A stretch of DNA of 43,375 bases from contig JAFGLY010000204.1 of assembly GCA_016927815.1 (NCBI GenBank), positions 1 through 43,375 on the forward strand, in the 5' to 3' direction. The notes below the pieces were generated by a model. The model ran no database searches and was not told the DNA's origin. It was given only the letters and a program-made list of their open reading frames with translations. This DNA is from Deltaproteobacteria bacterium. Its GTDB lineage: Bacteria > Myxococcota_A > UBA796 > JAFGLY01. Made by a program: the position numbers and the translations under genes. Shown in pieces: positions 7,308 through 13,259 of this stretch; positions within the stretch are counted from its first letter, which is position 1; each line of letters opens with the position of its first letter.

Positions 7308-7379
7308 CGCCCCCTGGCATCGACGCCTGCTCGCCCCGCATTCGGCCAGAGCGGGGGTCGGGTGTCCCTGGAGGTGACC

Positions 7380-8390
7380 ATGGCAGGTCGAATCCGTGCA
7401 GGTGTCGCCGGTGCCACCGGTGCCGTGGGAGGCGAGATCGTCGCCCTGCTCGGGCGCCCCGGCTCGCCCGTGTCCGAGATCGTCCCCATGGCGTCCATGG
7501 ACTCCGAGGTCCACCAGGTGGTCTTCGCCGGGGGAAACGTGACGGTCCAGAACCTCCACGCCGAGGCCCTGGAGCGCTGCGACGTGGTGTTCTTCGCCGT
7601 TCCCCGCACGGTGGCCGCGGCGCACCTGGCCGAGGCCCTCGACGCCGGTGTGGCCGTCATCGACCTCTCGGGCGCGCTCGGGCCCCAGGTGCCCCGCGTG
7701 GTCGCCTCCGTGAACCGGGTCGACCTCGAGCGGTTCGACGAGACCCGTGCCGTCGCGTGCCCCTCGGCCGCCGTGACCCTGGTCGCCACGCTTCTCCATC
7801 CCTTGAGCGTCCAGGTGAGGCGCTTGAGCGTCCGGGGCCTGCTCCTCCAACCCGCCTCGGTCCGGGGCCGGGCCGGGATCCGGGAGCTCTCCCAGCAGGT
7901 CGTGTCGCTCTTCAACAGCCGGGAACCCGAGCAACGGGTGTTCCCCCAGGGCCTGGCCTTCGACGTGGCCCCCATCCTGGGAACCCCCGGGCCGACGGGG
8001 TGGAGCGACATCGAGGTGGCCACGTCCCAGGAGGTCGCCGCTCTGTTGGGCCTCGACGCCTCGGACGTCGCCATCACCCAGATCGTGGCCCCCTGGTTCA
8101 ACGGGCTCTGCCTGGCCCTCCACGGCGTCATGGATCCCCCGCTGGGGATCGACCGCGTGGCCGACCTTCTCTCGAGCGCGCCGGACGTCCACCTCTCCCG
8201 GAACTCCGAGGACGTGCCGCGACCCCGGGGAAGCGACGGGCGCCTGGGCGTGCACGTCGGCCGGTTGCGGGCCGATCCGGCCGGGGAGGGGTTCCATCTC
8301 TGGGCCGCCGCGGATGCGCTGCGCTGGGGCGCGGCCGGCAACGCGGTGGCTGTGATGGAAGCCCTTCTGGAGGACGGCCGGATCGGGTGA
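7380..8390 (+). CDS. Aspartate-semialdehyde dehydrogenase family protein, Usg-1-like
   Basis: Homologue of ASADH, which reduces aspartyl phosphate to aspartate semialdehyde for Lys/Thr/Met synthesis. The Rossmann motif GVAGATGAVGGEIVALL opens the protein. A cysteine stands in ACPSAAVTLVATLLHPL where the catalytic Cys is expected (NCST-like), and the Gln is kept in LLQPASVRGRAG. However, the block that in ASADH reads like VRVPVFxGH, with substrate-binding Arg and catalytic His, here reads ITQIVAPWFNGLCL and lacks both. This resembles the Usg-1 branch, so catalysis is doubtful. ATG 7380 with GGAGGTG 4 nt upstream is preferred over GTG 7362. Length 336 residues. Confidence 0.75.
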   Translation: MAGRIRAGVAGATGAVGGEIVALLGRPGSPVSEIVPMASMDSEVHQVVFAGGNVTVQNLHAEALERCDVVFFAVPRTVAAAHLAEALDAGVAVIDLSGALGPQVPRVVASVNRVDLERFDETRAVACPSAAVTLVATLLHPLSVQVRRLSVRGLLLQPASVRGRAGIRELSQQVVSLFNSREPEQRVFPQGLAFDVAPILGTPGPTGWSDIEVATSQEVAALLGLDASDVAITQIVAPWFNGLCLALHGVMDPPLGIDRVADLLSSAPDVHLSRNSEDVPRPRGSDGRLGVHVGRLRADPAGEGFHLWAAADALRWGAAGNAVAVMEALLEDGRIG

Positions 8391-8517
8391 CAGGGTGTCC
8401 TGCTCCCTGGGAGGATTGTGGACACGTTGTCACGGCAGCTCCCCCTGGCGAGCGCCCCTGGCCCCCGGGTGGCGATCCGTCGCAAAAGCGCCAGGCGAGG
8501 ATGCGCTCGAAGCCGCA

Positions 8518-8547
8518 TTCGCGCTTCGGCGCGGTTCTTGCTAGGAC
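8518..8547 (+). promoter_or_regulatory. Possible promoter of the 8575 envelope gene
   Basis: TAGGAC at 8542-8547, preceded by TTGC, resembles other -10 boxes here; TTCGCG at 8518-8523 is a poor -35 with an 18-nt spacer. It sits in the 184-nt gap after the ASADH-like gene, in which nothing else was recognised. Confidence 0.3.
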
Positions 8548-8574
8548 ACCAGGGACGTCCTGGAGGACCCCCCG

Positions 8575-10971
8575 ATGATCCGTCCGGTCCTGCCTCTCCT
8601 CGCCTTTCTCCTCGCGACCCCCCGCGTGGTCGGTGCCGTGCCGAGCCGGGTGGCCGCCACGCTGGAGGCCGGCACGTCCATCCCCGACCTGGCCATCACC
8701 CCGGATGGGACCTTCCTGGGCTTCGTGGAGTCGGGCGCGGCCGAGATCTGGATCCTCGACACGCGATCCTGGGACACCACGGCCTATGCGCCCTGCGCCT
8801 CGGGCGATCCGTCCGGCATCACGCTGCGGACGACCGAGAGCGGCCTCCTGGAGGGTTTCGTGGGCTGCGGCGACGGGTCGGTCGCCCACATCGTCACCGC
8901 AGAGGACGGGACCATCGAGATCGCGGATCATGCCTTCCCCATCGGGACGGACCCCGTTCTCGCGGTCGAGAGCGACGACACCTACGTCTACGTGCTGACG
9001 GATCCCAGCAAGGGCAACCTGTGGGTTCACCGCCTCGACCCGGTCTCCTCCACCGTGGATGGGGACGGCTCCTGGCCCTCCACCCTGTCCATGGGCGGCT
9101 TCGAGGACAGCGGCGTCACCGAGGGCTTCCTCTTCCTCATCCACGGCGGTGACAACCTCTCGAAGGTGGACCTGGCCACCGGAAGCGCCTCGATCTCCCA
9201 GGAAAACCTCGGTGGACGGGACATCGTGGACGTCCACGTCCTCTCGGCCAGCGAGGTGTTCTGCGCGGACACCTCGGGGGGCGTGCTCAGGTTCGTCATC
9301 GGGACGAACGACTGGATCATCGTGCTCGACCGCGAAGACGACCTGGAATCCAACACCGCCGTCGGCGTGGACGACGTCTCGAGCGAGGCCTCCATGCTCG
9401 TGTACGACGCCGGGGCAGGCGAGCTGGTGGTGTTCTCCTACGACACCTACAGCGGGAATCCCGGATCCGAGATCCTCAGGTTCCCTGCGGAGGACGTCTC
9501 GGAGTTCGTGTTCGGGGGCGGATACGCCTTTGGTGGCGGCAGCACGGGACTCCTCCAGGTCTTCACGGACCGCCCGTGGGTGGAGGTGCTCGAGGTCTCC
9601 CCGGACAAGGCGCTCCTCGGGGAGGAGGTCGAACTCACGTTCACGTCGGACATGGAGGGCGACTGGGAGATTCGGCGGGGTGGAACGGTAGCCCGCGAGG
9701 GGACCTTGCTGGCGTCGGGGACCGTGACGAAGGCGGGCCAGGAGGTTTCGGCGATGGTGGAGGTGGATGCCTCCTTCGCGGAGGGCGCGAACGACCTGTG
9801 GGTCTTCGTGACCTCGCAATCCGGGACCCTGGGTCACGACCTCGCCACCGTCCTCGTGGACAATCCACCCAGCCGCGTGCATCTGGGCCCCGAGGCCGTC
9901 GGGTTCGGCAATGCCCAGATCACGGTGTCCTTCGACGGCATCCCCGATGCGGACCTGTCCCACTACGTCTTCTACCTCACGACCACGGCCTTCTCGCCGG
10001 AGGACTGGCCCACGGGCGGGCCGGAGTTCGACGGCCCGGACGACCAGGAGGCTCCCTTCGAGGTGTCGGCCGCACCGGGAGCGGCCGTGGTCTACACGAT
10101 CTCCCCACTGACCAACAGCCAGACGTATTACGTGGCGGTCCGTGCCTACGACCAGGGTGGCCAGGAGGGCGAGATGAGCGACGTGCAGAGTGCGACCCCT
10201 CGCAAGACCATCGCGGCCGCGGCCCTGGCGGGCGAGACCGGCGGCTGGTGCGGCACCCGGACCCCCCTGTCCCTCGGGCTCGCACTCGTCGGACTCCTCG
10301 TGGCCCTGTGTCGACGCGCCCGCCCGGCGGTTCTGGGTCTCGCCGCGTGCGCGCTCCTCCTGCCCGAGAGAGCCGAGGCCGGGTTCGCGAGCGTCGAGAT
10401 CCGCTATGGCCCCTACCACCCGGCGTCCGAGGCGGTCCAGACCGTGTACGGGAAGGACGGCCACCAGGTCCTGTGGGTGCAGGGCGGCCCGCGCTGGCAC
10501 TCCTGGATCGGCCTGGACCTGGGGGTCGGCTTCTACCAGGAACTGGCCACCACGGTCTCGGTGGACGCCTCGCACACCCCTTCGTCCGAGCACACCATGC
10601 TCACGGCGTGGCCCTTCCAGGCGGCGCTCACGGGTCGGCTCGACGTCCTGGAGGAGCAGGTGCTGGTGCCCAAGGGGAGCATCGGGCTCGACTACTGGCT
10701 CTGGCGCGAGAACTGGTACGTCAATCCGGACGTCTCGAGCGAGGACGACATCGCCGGCGGGGAACTCGGATGGCACTGGAGCGTCGGGGGCGACCTCCTC
10801 CTCGACGTCCTGGAGCCGTCGCGCGCCTCGGGCCTGGAGGCGCGGACGGGCATCGAGGACACCTACCTCACGGCCGAGTACCGCAAGCAGGTCCTCGGCC
10901 CGTGGGGGGGCGACGGGGTGAGCCTCTTCGACGGCTCCATGGTCACCATCGGCCTGCGTCTCCACTTCTGA
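8575..10971 (+). CDS. Two-part envelope protein: secreted propeller/FnIII-like half with MYXO-CTERM-like tail fused to an outer-membrane barrel
   Basis: A 798-residue protein. Residues 1-21 form a signal peptide (cleavage near VVGA). Residues 22-340 look like a beta-propeller (DLAITPDGTFLGFVES and similar strands), followed by about 200 residues of beta-sandwich ending in an FnIII-like segment (TNSQTYYVAVRAYDQGGQEG). At 553-584 comes a MYXO-CTERM-like sorting tail: GGWCGTR, a hydrophobic stretch, CRRARP. It is followed at once by a second signal-like segment (AVLGLAACALLLPERAEA, cleavage before Gly603) and a 196-residue C-terminal beta-strand region ending in Phe (GLRLHF), resembling the MXAN_2562 barrel family. 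The first half resembles the MXAN_2561 type. An in-frame GTG at 10300 could start the second half separately. Family names are from memory. Confidence 0.7.
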   Translation: MIRPVLPLLAFLLATPRVVGAVPSRVAATLEAGTSIPDLAITPDGTFLGFVESGAAEIWILDTRSWDTTAYAPCASGDPSGITLRTTESGLLEGFVGCGDGSVAHIVTAEDGTIEIADHAFPIGTDPVLAVESDDTYVYVLTDPSKGNLWVHRLDPVSSTVDGDGSWPSTLSMGGFEDSGVTEGFLFLIHGGDNLSKVDLATGSASISQENLGGRDIVDVHVLSASEVFCADTSGGVLRFVIGTNDWIIVLDREDDLESNTAVGVDDVSSEASMLVYDAGAGELVVFSYDTYSGNPGSEILRFPAEDVSEFVFGGGYAFGGGSTGLLQVFTDRPWVEVLEVSPDKALLGEEVELTFTSDMEGDWEIRRGGTVAREGTLLASGTVTKAGQEVSAMVEVDASFAEGANDLWVFVTSQSGTLGHDLATVLVDNPPSRVHLGPEAVGFGNAQITVSFDGIPDADLSHYVFYLTTTAFSPEDWPTGGPEFDGPDDQEAPFEVSAAPGAAVVYTISPLTNSQTYYVAVRAYDQGGQEGEMSDVQSATPRKTIAAAALAGETGGWCGTRTPLSLGLALVGLLVALCRRARPAVLGLAACALLLPERAEAGFASVEIRYGPYHPASEAVQTVYGKDGHQVLWVQGGPRWHSWIGLDLGVGFYQELATTVSVDASHTPSSEHTMLTAWPFQAALTGRLDVLEEQVLVPKGSIGLDYWLWRENWYVNPDVSSEDDIAGGELGWHWSVGGDLLLDVLEPSRASGLEARTGIEDTYLTAEYRKQVLGPWGGDGVSLFDGSMVTIGLRLHF

Positions 10972-10986
10972 GACCACGGGCGCGGG

Positions 10987-11745
10987 ATGCCCACCTGGCG
11001 CCTTCTCCTGGAGTACGACGGCACACTCTACGTCGGGTGGCAGCGGCAGCCACGGGGCACGAGCATCCAGGGACGCATCGAGGCTGCCCTCGCGCAGGTG
11101 CTCGGGGGCGAGGCGGTGGTCGTCCACGGCAGCGGCCGGACCGACGCCGGCGTCCACGCGCTCGGCCAGGTGGCGTCGTTTCGCGCCACCACCGTGAGGA
11201 GCGATCGGGCGATCCGAATGGGGCTCAACAGTCTGCTGCCCCGGGACATCGCCTGCCGGGCGGCCTTTCGGGTCTCGGATGCCTTCGACGCGCTCTCGAC
11301 CCCCCACTCGAAGCGGTATGCCTACCGCATCCTCGACACCGGCGAGCGCTCGCCCTTGAGGGAACGCTTCACCTGGCACACGAGGGGCGTCCTCGACGTG
11401 CCCGCCATGCAGGCGGGCGCCCGGCACCTGGTGGGGAGCTGGGACTTCGAGTCCTTCCGCGCCGGAGGCTGCAGTGCCGCCACCTCGCTCCGCACCGTGC
11501 GGGCCCTGGAGATCTGCCGTGTGGACGACGAGGTCCGCGTGGAGATCGAGGGAGACGGCTTCTTGAGGCACATGGTCCGCATCGTGGTCGGGACCCTGGT
11601 CCAGGTGGGGCAGGGCCGGATCGAACCGGAAGCCGTCGCACGGATCCGCGACGCGCGGGATCGGTCCCTGGCCGGGAGGACGGCCCCTGCGGCCGGGTTG
11701 TGCCTTCTGTGGGTGGACTATGCCGGCGCGGACGCCCCGCTCTAG
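10987..11745 (+). CDS. truA: tRNA pseudouridine(38-40) synthase
   Basis: Converts uridine to pseudouridine at positions 38-40 of the tRNA anticodon arm. The 252-residue protein has the N-terminal strand RLLLEYDGTLYVGWQRQP, the catalytic motif GRTDAGVHALGQ with nucleophile Asp53, SKRYAYRI, and FLRHMVRIVVGTLVQVGQG near the end. It begins 15 nt after the envelope gene and is probably cotranscribed; the ribosome-binding site is weak. It is convergent with the FYDLN gene across about 50 nt holding heptamer repeats. Confidence 0.95.
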   Translation: MPTWRLLLEYDGTLYVGWQRQPRGTSIQGRIEAALAQVLGGEAVVVHGSGRTDAGVHALGQVASFRATTVRSDRAIRMGLNSLLPRDIACRAAFRVSDAFDALSTPHSKRYAYRILDTGERSPLRERFTWHTRGVLDVPAMQAGARHLVGSWDFESFRAGGCSAATSLRTVRALEICRVDDEVRVEIEGDGFLRHMVRIVVGTLVQVGQGRIEPEAVARIRDARDRSLAGRTAPAAGLCLLWVDYAGADAPL

Positions 11746-11771
11746 GACCCCGGGCGCCAGAAAACAGGATT

Positions 11772-11792
11772 CTACAGCCTACAGCCTACAGC
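11772..11792 (+). repeat. Three tandem CTACAGC heptamers
   Basis: CTACAGC is repeated three times without interruption (11772-11792), between the stops of truA and the FYDLN gene. The same unit in the same orientation recurs at 12293-12320 on the other side of that gene. Confidence 0.85.
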
Positions 11793-11795
11793 CTG

Positions 11796-12122
11796 TCATG
11801 CGTCGTCGAAGTCCTCGGAGATCGGTTCCTCGTCCTCGTCGCCCTCGGGGGTTTCCAGGTCCTCGTCCTCGTCGGAGAAGTCCAGGATCTCGTCTTCGTC
11901 GACCAGGTCGGCGTCGTCGTCCGATTCGCCGACCCCGGCCTTGCGGGCCTGGTTCTCGGCCTTGAGCCGCGCCATCGCGGCCGTGCGCGGGTCCACCTTG
12001 GAATCGTCCGTGATGGACACCCCGCACTTGGGGCACCGGATCTCCTCCCGGTTCAGGTCGTAGAAACGGGCGCCACAGACCGGGCACGAATGGCGGCCAC
12101 CGAGGTTCCTCTTGGGGATCAT
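11796..12122 (-). CDS. FYDLN acid domain (TIGR02300-type) zinc-ribbon protein
   Basis: A 108-residue protein with an N-terminal zinc ribbon (HSCPVCGARFYDLN then IRCPKCGVSI, four Cys in two CxxC pairs), the FYDLN signature between them, and a long C-terminal tail of mostly Asp and Glu. Function of the family is not established; the ribbon suggests nucleic-acid or protein binding. The ATG at 12122 is chosen because the protein then starts at the conserved PKRNLGGRHSC and has GGAG 8 nt upstream; a start at 12158 would add 12 residues. It is a single gene on the minus strand between plus-strand neighbours, with heptamer repeats on both sides. Confidence 0.85.
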   Translation of the reverse strand: MIPKRNLGGRHSCPVCGARFYDLNREEIRCPKCGVSITDDSKVDPRTAAMARLKAENQARKAGVGESDDDADLVDEDEILDFSDEDEDLETPEGDEDEEPISEDFDDA

Positions 12123-12226
12123 GCGGAGTCTCCACGGGCTGGGAGCGAGGAGCCCCACCCCCTAATCCCGGGGCCGGCGGGGATCAACGTCGAGACGCGA
12201 GACCCGGAACAAGGAGGCGCGGACAC

Positions 12227-12250
12227 CTCCCTCTCCCAGGGGGAGGGGAG
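12227..12250. repeat. Imperfect hairpin between FYDLN gene and rplM
   Basis: A CTCCCT-type arm (12227-12237) faces a G/A arm (12241-12250) around a 3-nt loop: about nine pairs with one bulge and one G-U. It lies in the 295-nt divergent intergenic region, which otherwise holds the heptamer repeats and the rplM promoter. No T-run follows, so a terminator role is doubtful. Confidence 0.35.
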
Positions 12251-12292
12251 ACGGGGCGGGATGCGAGCCCCACCCGCCCTGCAGCCCAGGGC

Positions 12293-12320
12293 CTGCAGCC
12301 TACAGCCTACAGCCTACAGC
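12293..12320 (+). repeat. Four tandem CTRCAGC heptamers
   Basis: One CTGCAGC (12293-12299) and three CTACAGC (12300-12320) in tandem, running directly into CTAC and the -35 box of the rplM promoter at 12325. Copy-number change here would move sequence just upstream of that promoter. Confidence 0.85.
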
Positions 12321-12324
12321 CTAC

Positions 12325-12353
12325 TTGACATCGCACCACGCTTCCTTTAGAAA
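12325..12353 (+). promoter_or_regulatory. Promoter of rplM-rpsI
   Basis: Consensus -35 TTGACA (12325-12330), 17-nt spacer, -10 TAGAAA (12348-12353). Predicted start near 12360 gives a leader of about 58 nt before the rplM ATG. One of the best sigma-70-type matches in the window. Confidence 0.65.
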
Positions 12354-12417
12354 GGCGGGTCGCCGGAGGGGCCGGCGTGCGCCTCGGCCTCCCGTGTACC
12401 CCGTAGAGGATGCCCCC

Positions 12418-12852
12418 ATGGCCACGTATTCCGCAAAACCGGGTGAGGTTCCGCAGCGCTGGTTCGTCGTGGACGCCGAAGGACAGGTGCTCGGACGGCT
12501 CGCCACCCGCATCGCGCGCGTGCTCCGTGGCAAGCACAAGGTCCAGTTCACGCCCCACGTGGACACGGGCGACTTCGTGATCGTCGTGAACGCCGAAAAG
12601 GTCCTCCTCACGGGCCAGAAGCTGGACCAGAAGCTCTACCACCGCTACAGCGGCCACCCGGGCGGCCTGCGGTCCATCCCCGCCCGACAGGTGCTGGCGA
12701 CGGACCCCGAGCGGGCCATCCGCCAGGCCGTCGAGGGCATGCTGCCCAAGAACCTGCTCTCTCGGAAAATCCGTACCAAGCTCAAAGTCTACGCGGGTGC
12801 GGACCATCCCCACGCCGCCCAGAAGCCCGAGCCGCTTCCCGAGAGCGTGTAG
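12418..12852 (+). CDS. rplM: 50S ribosomal protein L13
   Basis: L13 (uL13) is an early-assembly large-subunit protein. The 144-residue product has [52 protein letters not shown], and [14 protein letters not shown], all in family order and length. ATG 12418 was preferred over upstream in-frame starts because it has AGAGGA upstream and begins a few residues before the conserved core. It precedes rpsI by 8 nt, the universal L13-S9 pair. Confidence 0.96.
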
Positions 12853-12860
12853 AGGAGCCC

Positions 12861-13259
12861 ATGTCCAAGACCCTCGTGCAGTTTTCCGCCACCGGTCGCC
12901 GCAAGTGCGCCACCGCGCGTGTCTTTCTCCGGCCGGGCACCGGCCGCATCACCGTGAACGGACTGGACCTGGACCGCTACTTCGAGCGCGAGACCTCCAA
13001 GATGATCCTGAGGGCGCCCTTGGAGCTCGTGGAGAGCGCGTCGTCCTTCGACGCCATCATCACGGTGGTGGGCGGTGGCAAGTCGGGGCAGGCGGGCGCC
13101 GTCCGCCATGGGCTGGCGCGGGCACTGACGCTCGCCAACCCGGAGTGGCGCGCACCCCTGAAGAAGGCGGGTTTCCTCACCCGGGACGCGCGCATGGTCG
13201 AGCGCAAGAAGTACGGCCGATCGGGCGCGCGCAAGCGGTTCCAGTACTCCAAGCGGTAG
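12861..13259 (+). CDS. rpsI: 30S ribosomal protein S9
   Basis: S9 (uS9) has a C-terminal tail that reaches the P-site tRNA. The 132-residue product contains [50 protein letters not shown], and the conserved basic end [24 protein letters not shown], described here in parts: [16 protein letters not shown] then RFQYSKR. GAGGAG lies 4 nt before ATG 12861. Second gene of the L13-S9 operon. Confidence 0.97.

Follow-up and report, generated by a model that had tools for sequence, protein, structure and literature searches.

How many proteins does a gene make when a tag that should close a surface protein lies in the middle of its reading frame? The question is raised by a gene in the window (the whole stretch of 43,375 nucleotides analysed here, contig JAFGLY010000204.1 of assembly GCA_016927815.1, from a Deltaproteobacteria bacterium). 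The gene is a single continuous ATG frame of 798 codons and 798 aa at 8575-10971 on the forward strand, according to the open reading frame list and its translation. A sequence-only reading had claimed that two families known elsewhere as neighbouring separate genes, MXAN_2561 and MXAN_2562, are fused in this frame, and had offered two mechanisms for making the products: processing of a polyprotein, or internal initiation at GTG 10300. Here, we weigh these possibilities using family models, predicted structures, and the structure of the gene in relatives.

Parts of the protein

Structure prediction gave a propeller followed by two Ig/fn3-like domains in the first half of the protein and an eight-stranded barrel in the second, in keeping with the two-part layout that had been claimed (Table 1). 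In the AlphaFold2 run on the whole protein (six sequences; mean pLDDT 79.3), pLDDT in the propeller is mostly 75-95, and the eight strands are preceded by two helices of low confidence (565-581 and 583-594); pLDDT in this junction hairpin is under 50. The propeller resembles WD40 propellers in Foldseek and has a profile match to the 1l0q surface-layer propeller. The second Ig/fn3-like domain extends into the MXAN_2561-like region, and the hydrophobic N-terminal segment also occurs in the full-length orthologues that were compared.

Table 1. Coordinates in the window of the fused gene, its predicted parts, and its neighbours
Feature	Position	Strand	Basis
Fused ORF, 798 aa, one open frame	8575..10971	+	Orthologous frames at 54/59 order loci
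N-terminal signal peptide, residues ~1-22, MIRPVLPLLAFLLATPRVVGAV	8575..8640	+	Sequence
Beta-propeller, residues ~25-330	8647..9564	+	AlphaFold2, Foldseek, profile match
Two Ig/fn3-like domains, residues ~336-430 and ~442-540	9580..10194	+	NCBIfam and AlphaFold2
Internal MYXO-CTERM-like tag, residues 553-584 (Cys559 motif, TM helix, RRAR)	10231..10326	+	Alignment and orthologue TIGR03901 matches
Cys559 codon, predicted lipidation/myxosortase residue	10249..10251	+	Invariant column
In-frame GTG, proposed internal start, judged not to be conserved as a start	10300..10302	+	Start-codon comparison in relatives
Second, internal signal peptide, residues ~584-602, ending A600-E-A602; predicted cut 602|603	10324..10380	+	Conserved A600/A602
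MXAN_2562-type eight-stranded outer-membrane barrel, residues 603-798	10381..10968	+	NF040596, AlphaFold2, Foldseek
Upstream neighbour, semialdehyde dehydrogenase (asd-like)	7362..8390	+	Pfam PF01118/PF02774
Downstream neighbour truA, 15 nt past the fusion	10987..11745	+	Pfam PF01416

The C-terminal half is predicted to be an outer-membrane barrel of eight strands that is MXAN_2562-like over its full length and falls just below the curated cut-off. The MXAN_2562 barrel model of NCBIfam, NF040596, covers residues 606-798 (model positions 3-208 of 208) and scores 95.3 bits against the whole protein and 99.3 bits against the C-terminal part, with a curated cut-off of 100; it matches 24 of 24 aligned orthologues at E<=1 and exceeds the cut-off in 13 of 58 relatives. 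Modelled alone, this half forms eight strands (AlphaFold2, pLDDT 82.6) that match OmpA, NspA, OmpX, and OmpW in Foldseek, and it terminates in an aromatic Phe (...RLHF).

Towards the end of the first half, the tag region appears weakly MXAN_2561-like. NF045522, an equivalog model for MXAN_2561, matches residues 506-581 only (model positions 222-302 of 304) at 22.9 bits, under its cut-off of 150 for a whole-model match, and it has no match to the N-terminal ~330 residues of the window protein, the beta-propeller. The NF045522 match recurs at E<=1 in 24 of 24 aligned orthologues. With both family models finding their halves at these scores, the objection that the halves might lack homology to two separate families falls away.

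Residues 553-584 (ETGGWCGTRTPLSLGLALVGLLVALCRRARPA) combine a Cys motif (GGWCGT), a hydrophobic segment, and an Arg cluster (CRRARP), so the features of a MYXO-CTERM tag (Cys motif, TM helix, Arg cluster) are present in the sequence. The MYXO-CTERM model TIGR03901 found no match to the window tag in genome-wide, NCBIfam, and isolated-tail searches (cut-off 20 bits). It matches 5 of 24 aligned orthologues at E<=1, and scores above the cut-off were obtained for two hand-picked orthologue tails (23.3 and 26.9 bits) and for a C-terminal tail of a genus with split genes, g8 (20.6 bits); in this test, one query, the L059 tail, had Arg in place of Ala as its third residue, which lies beyond the part that matched. 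We call the window tag MYXO-CTERM-like by homology because its orthologues match TIGR03901, and since the model does not see the window tag itself, its predicted recognition by a myxosortase rests on those orthologues. The position of the tag is not C-terminal: ~215 residues of the window protein lie downstream of it, and eight other tags read in the same genome stop 0-27 residues short of the protein end. Directly after it comes AVLGLAACALLLPERAEA|GF, a second signal-peptide-like segment (ending PERAEA|GF), and then the barrel. Inspection of the sequence thus bore out both the mid-protein tag that had been described and the second signal-peptide-like segment and Phe-ending barrel said to follow it at once. 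An n-region, an h-region, and an AxA before the mature part, the features expected of a signal peptidase I site, are all present at the internal site.

Candidates for the enzymes that such a junction would call for are encoded in the window's genome. A myxosortase-core protease (L181, G000:C168:143284-143586) scores 117.8 bits against a cut-off of 100, with its best subfamily models below their cut-offs (MrtP, 162.7 against 250; MrtX, 126.5 against 180), and signal peptidase I, GspD, and BamA are encoded as well. Lipidation of the Cys in tags of the MYXO-CTERM class is a proposal (Guo, Haft and Wall, PMC11980579).

One frame or two in relatives

The barrel model was found in 55 of 58 same-order genomes, mostly within frames of ~790-900 aa. 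In the order set of 59 loci (53 fetched, five more, and the window), 54 are fused at the same place, one frame running through the Cys motif, the helix, an Arg cluster, another hydrophobic segment, and AxA; this count includes L072, which has both halves in one frame and a hairpin that was not located. The remaining five, all from genus g8, are split. The claimed fusion is therefore real, and "fused here, separate elsewhere" was an understatement. An asd-like gene accompanies 50 of the 53 fetched order loci and truA 47 of the 53, and the locus, in this asd-X-truA context, is orthologous across the order. A scan of genome contigs with a single protein found no relatives, and a smaller alignment (A2) used as the query on genome contigs found five.

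Some further features of these loci were noted in passing. Window positions 7362-13259 form a housekeeping cluster, with rplM-like and rpsI-like genes after truA, and genes of both kinds also lie downstream in L184 and L187. The latter belongs to a MAG titled Klebsiella pneumoniae and has the locus as a fused frame at 40% identity; the title is probably a mislabel. In L072 (G019), a long acidic Ser/Asp-rich repeat (DSAGDDSAGDD) separates the junction from the barrel.

Genus g8 is nested within the fused f2 clade on the barrel tree (SH-aLRT 99 for f2), and the break between its two genes falls precisely at the boundary of tag and second signal peptide. The upstream gene has an Arg-rich C-terminal tag at its end, and the barrel gene has its own ATG and its own signal peptide, a few nucleotides downstream or overlapping. 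The halves can therefore function without being covalently joined, and this fission, a natural one, provides the best evidence that they act as separate proteins.

Across the phylum, the barrel occurs in 275 of 379 genomes. Outside the order, where loci were assigned as fused or split by eye from junction print-outs, fused junctions were read in f13 (8/8 read), in part of f16, and in f24, f46, and f59, and three of the f16 fused loci are on single-contig genomes (G065, G130, G182); of the remaining families most are split, as are the class-mates that were read. In f34 (L130-L134) and f30 (L135-L137) the locus is of the same type and the frame is also continuous, with CFI-box-CTERM in place of MYXO-CTERM as the anchor (NF041770, a domain match of 97.6 bits in L130 and 72.2 bits in L135, cut-off 40) and the TM helix, Arg cluster, second signal peptide, and barrel retained after it. 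The claim that MXAN_2561 and MXAN_2562 are adjacent separate genes elsewhere holds in G213, where the match to MXAN_2561 (C37:576383-577330) immediately precedes, on the same strand, the one to MXAN_2562 (C37:577467-578042). When both models were run on ten further genomes from f43, f19, and f53, the two matches proved to be close together, on one contig and in the same orientation, in several (G213, G205, G356, G285, G274, G344, G233). A tree of the barrel with 136 rows requires 9 changes of the fused label, at least 6 of them forced by well-supported branches; this was a quick tree with no bootstraps and no inferred root, on which gain and loss are generally not separable. In the window's order, fusion is the rule, and it also recurs in other parts of the phylum.

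The junction itself is constrained. In an alignment of 24 sequences with 31-48% identity to the window protein, Cys559 never varies, and conservation is at least 90% for Arg580, Arg581, Ala600, and Ala602, while the flanking hydrophobic residues drift; across fused frames, the Arg-rich loop is ~3-15 residues long. Of the 54 fused orthologues, 45 follow a strict Cys-TM-RR-TM-AxA grammar ahead of the barrel, versus 0.02% of shuffled segments, which exceeds chance; the window itself narrowly fails the strict form because PERAEA is charged. A looser script recorded AxA, a motif easily met in Ala-rich segments, in 51 of the 54 fused loci, and of the others L071 has AxA by eye, L168 has GRA, and in L072 it was not located. 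In 11 of 11 close pairs, some of which share members, dN/dS for the hairpin is below 1 (0.18-0.69), which points to purifying selection.

A probable route from one chain to two proteins

In the reading that we consider probable, the product of the gene is a polyprotein, and signal peptidase I and a myxosortase would cut its hairpin to give two proteins. The parts follow one another in a conserved frame, as signal peptide 1, ectodomain, MYXO-CTERM-like anchor, Arg loop, internal signal peptide (AxA), and barrel, and because of this order the predicted topology would place the first half out, run the tag helix out-to-in and the second segment in-to-out, and leave the barrel out. The first half would be exported by the Sec machinery until the anchor helix stopped transfer and left the Arg loop in the cytoplasm, where the loop would double as the cytoplasmic tail of the tag and the n-region of the second signal peptide. 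That signal peptide would then re-initiate export, signal peptidase I would cut at A-E-A|G (602|603) and release the barrel, which BAM would assemble into the outer membrane, and the myxosortase would cut near Cys559 to leave the surface half lipid-anchored. Since the predicted cutting sites are conserved across the order, one long chain is most likely made and then cut, and as a single translation event would serve both proteins, they would be produced 1:1.

The other mechanism that had been offered, internal initiation, strikes us as unlikely. It would have the barrel translated from an in-frame start inside the tag, with the long frame an incidental or minor product; GTG 10300 is indeed present and would yield a textbook signal peptide (MALCRRARPAVLGLAACALLLPERAEA), and many relatives have an in-frame GTG or ATG near the junction. 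However, among 51 scorable fused relatives (53 less L071 and L078, which were wrongly anchored), the possible n-region lacks ATG, GTG, and TTG in 10 and has an ATG in no more than 10, just 2 have a start codon preceded by a motif of Shine-Dalgarno type, and the start positions are scattered. With no internal start codon conserved, initiation at GTG 10300 is disfavoured. Further, the split genus starts its barrel at a clear ATG, and internal initiation offers no reason for an order-wide loss of the stop codon.

Somewhat less probable again is a bipartite protein that is never cut, in which the surface half remains covalently attached to the barrel, like the passenger of an autotransporter, and the hairpin is a linker. 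The frame is continuous, and the order of an N-terminal passenger and a C-terminal barrel resembles that of type V secretion proteins. But this linker would consist of two hydrophobic helices, an Arg-rich loop, and an AxA end, which should sit in the inner membrane and be cut, and the genes are separate in the nested genus g8 and in other families.

That a sequencing error or drift recently removed a stop codon and joined two genes without functional meaning is highly improbable and is already contradicted by the comparative data, for although the window comes from a draft assembly of 216 contigs and long frames stay open by chance in high-GC genomes, the identical fusion recurs at 54 of the 59 loci in the order and on three single-contig genomes from another family, the hairpin is under purifying selection, and the other frames have no stop near the junction. 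An indel near 10300 separating two frames, which had been named as grounds for abandoning the fusion, was examined as a candidate and rejected: beyond the junction, one of the other frames runs on for 593 nt before its next stop and the third is open to 12350, which leaves no two tidy genes, and 54 of the 59 order loci have the fused frame.

For the cut polyprotein as a wider pattern, we judge the following, on balance, somewhat better than even: a conserved envelope polyprotein in which a sorting tag and an internal signal peptide share an Arg loop and are served by two proteases, with repeated switching between one frame and two in Myxococcota and a swappable anchor (MYXO-CTERM or CFI-box-CTERM). 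If so, a sorting tag in mid-protein would be a regular, order-wide arrangement and not a single odd case, the gene would be a natural bacterial polyprotein whose halves are sent to different places in the envelope, and the barrel would be indicated as a functional partner of the surface protein. The existence of fused and split versions at one locus makes the C-terminal requirement of MYXO-CTERM tags directly testable.

Comparison with known systems

The closest counterparts by family model are the MXAN_2561/MXAN_2562 pair (NF045522 and NF040596), which share with the window gene the barrel family, the type of tag that ends the first protein, and, in other lineages, adjacency of the genes. In contrast to that pair, the window gene is one frame, has an extra N-terminal propeller, and is MXAN_2561-like only over the last ~80 residues of its first half, and both of its scores are under the curated cut-offs. 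A literature search on MXAN_2561 found no paper. FbcH of Bradyrhizobium, a cytochrome b/c1 polyprotein cut at an internal signal peptide, is likewise a bacterial polyprotein with such a cut, but its products are subunits of a respiratory complex and it has neither a sorting tag nor an outer-membrane barrel. Our literature searches on FbcH and on internal-signal polyproteins returned nothing usable.

An internal MYXO-CTERM has been described in MXAN_5598 of Myxococcus xanthus, where an atypical tag joins a predicted adhesin region to an outer-membrane barrel and the authors, who report no second case of this atypical kind, suggest that the N-terminal portion is processed (Guo, Haft and Wall, PMC11980579). 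The window gene resembles it in having an internal tag between surface region and barrel. MXAN_5598 is nevertheless a different protein, with a large adhesin, a barrel plus OmpA domains, and a location at a cell-division cluster. The same authors liken the combined architecture of TraA and TraB to a MYXO-CTERM plus barrel fusion and compare it with MXAN_5598 (PMC11980579). TraA and TraB are alike in that a surface receptor carrying MYXO-CTERM is paired with an envelope protein encoded by the next gene, but they are separate proteins whose ORFs overlap by four bases (PMC3325183), with a PA14 and Cys-rich receptor and an OmpA-domain partner, and the likeness drawn is one of architecture. In Haloferax volcanii, an internal tripartite tag processed by ArtA is cited as functional though not C-terminal (ref. 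46 of PMC11980579); it is alike in that a C-terminal-type sorting tag works at a non-terminal position and differs in being archaeal, with another enzyme and another tag.

The kind of protein is thus already known from one example, and since the MXAN_5598 fusion has been reported, the window gene is a widely conserved variant and not the first of its type. Unlike the fusion in that report, the window-type fusion is order-wide and interconverts with separate genes. As far as the searched literature shows, four things are new: conservation throughout an order, the recurrence of both fused and split states at a single locus, a second predicted cutting site that is conserved, and the swapped anchor module.
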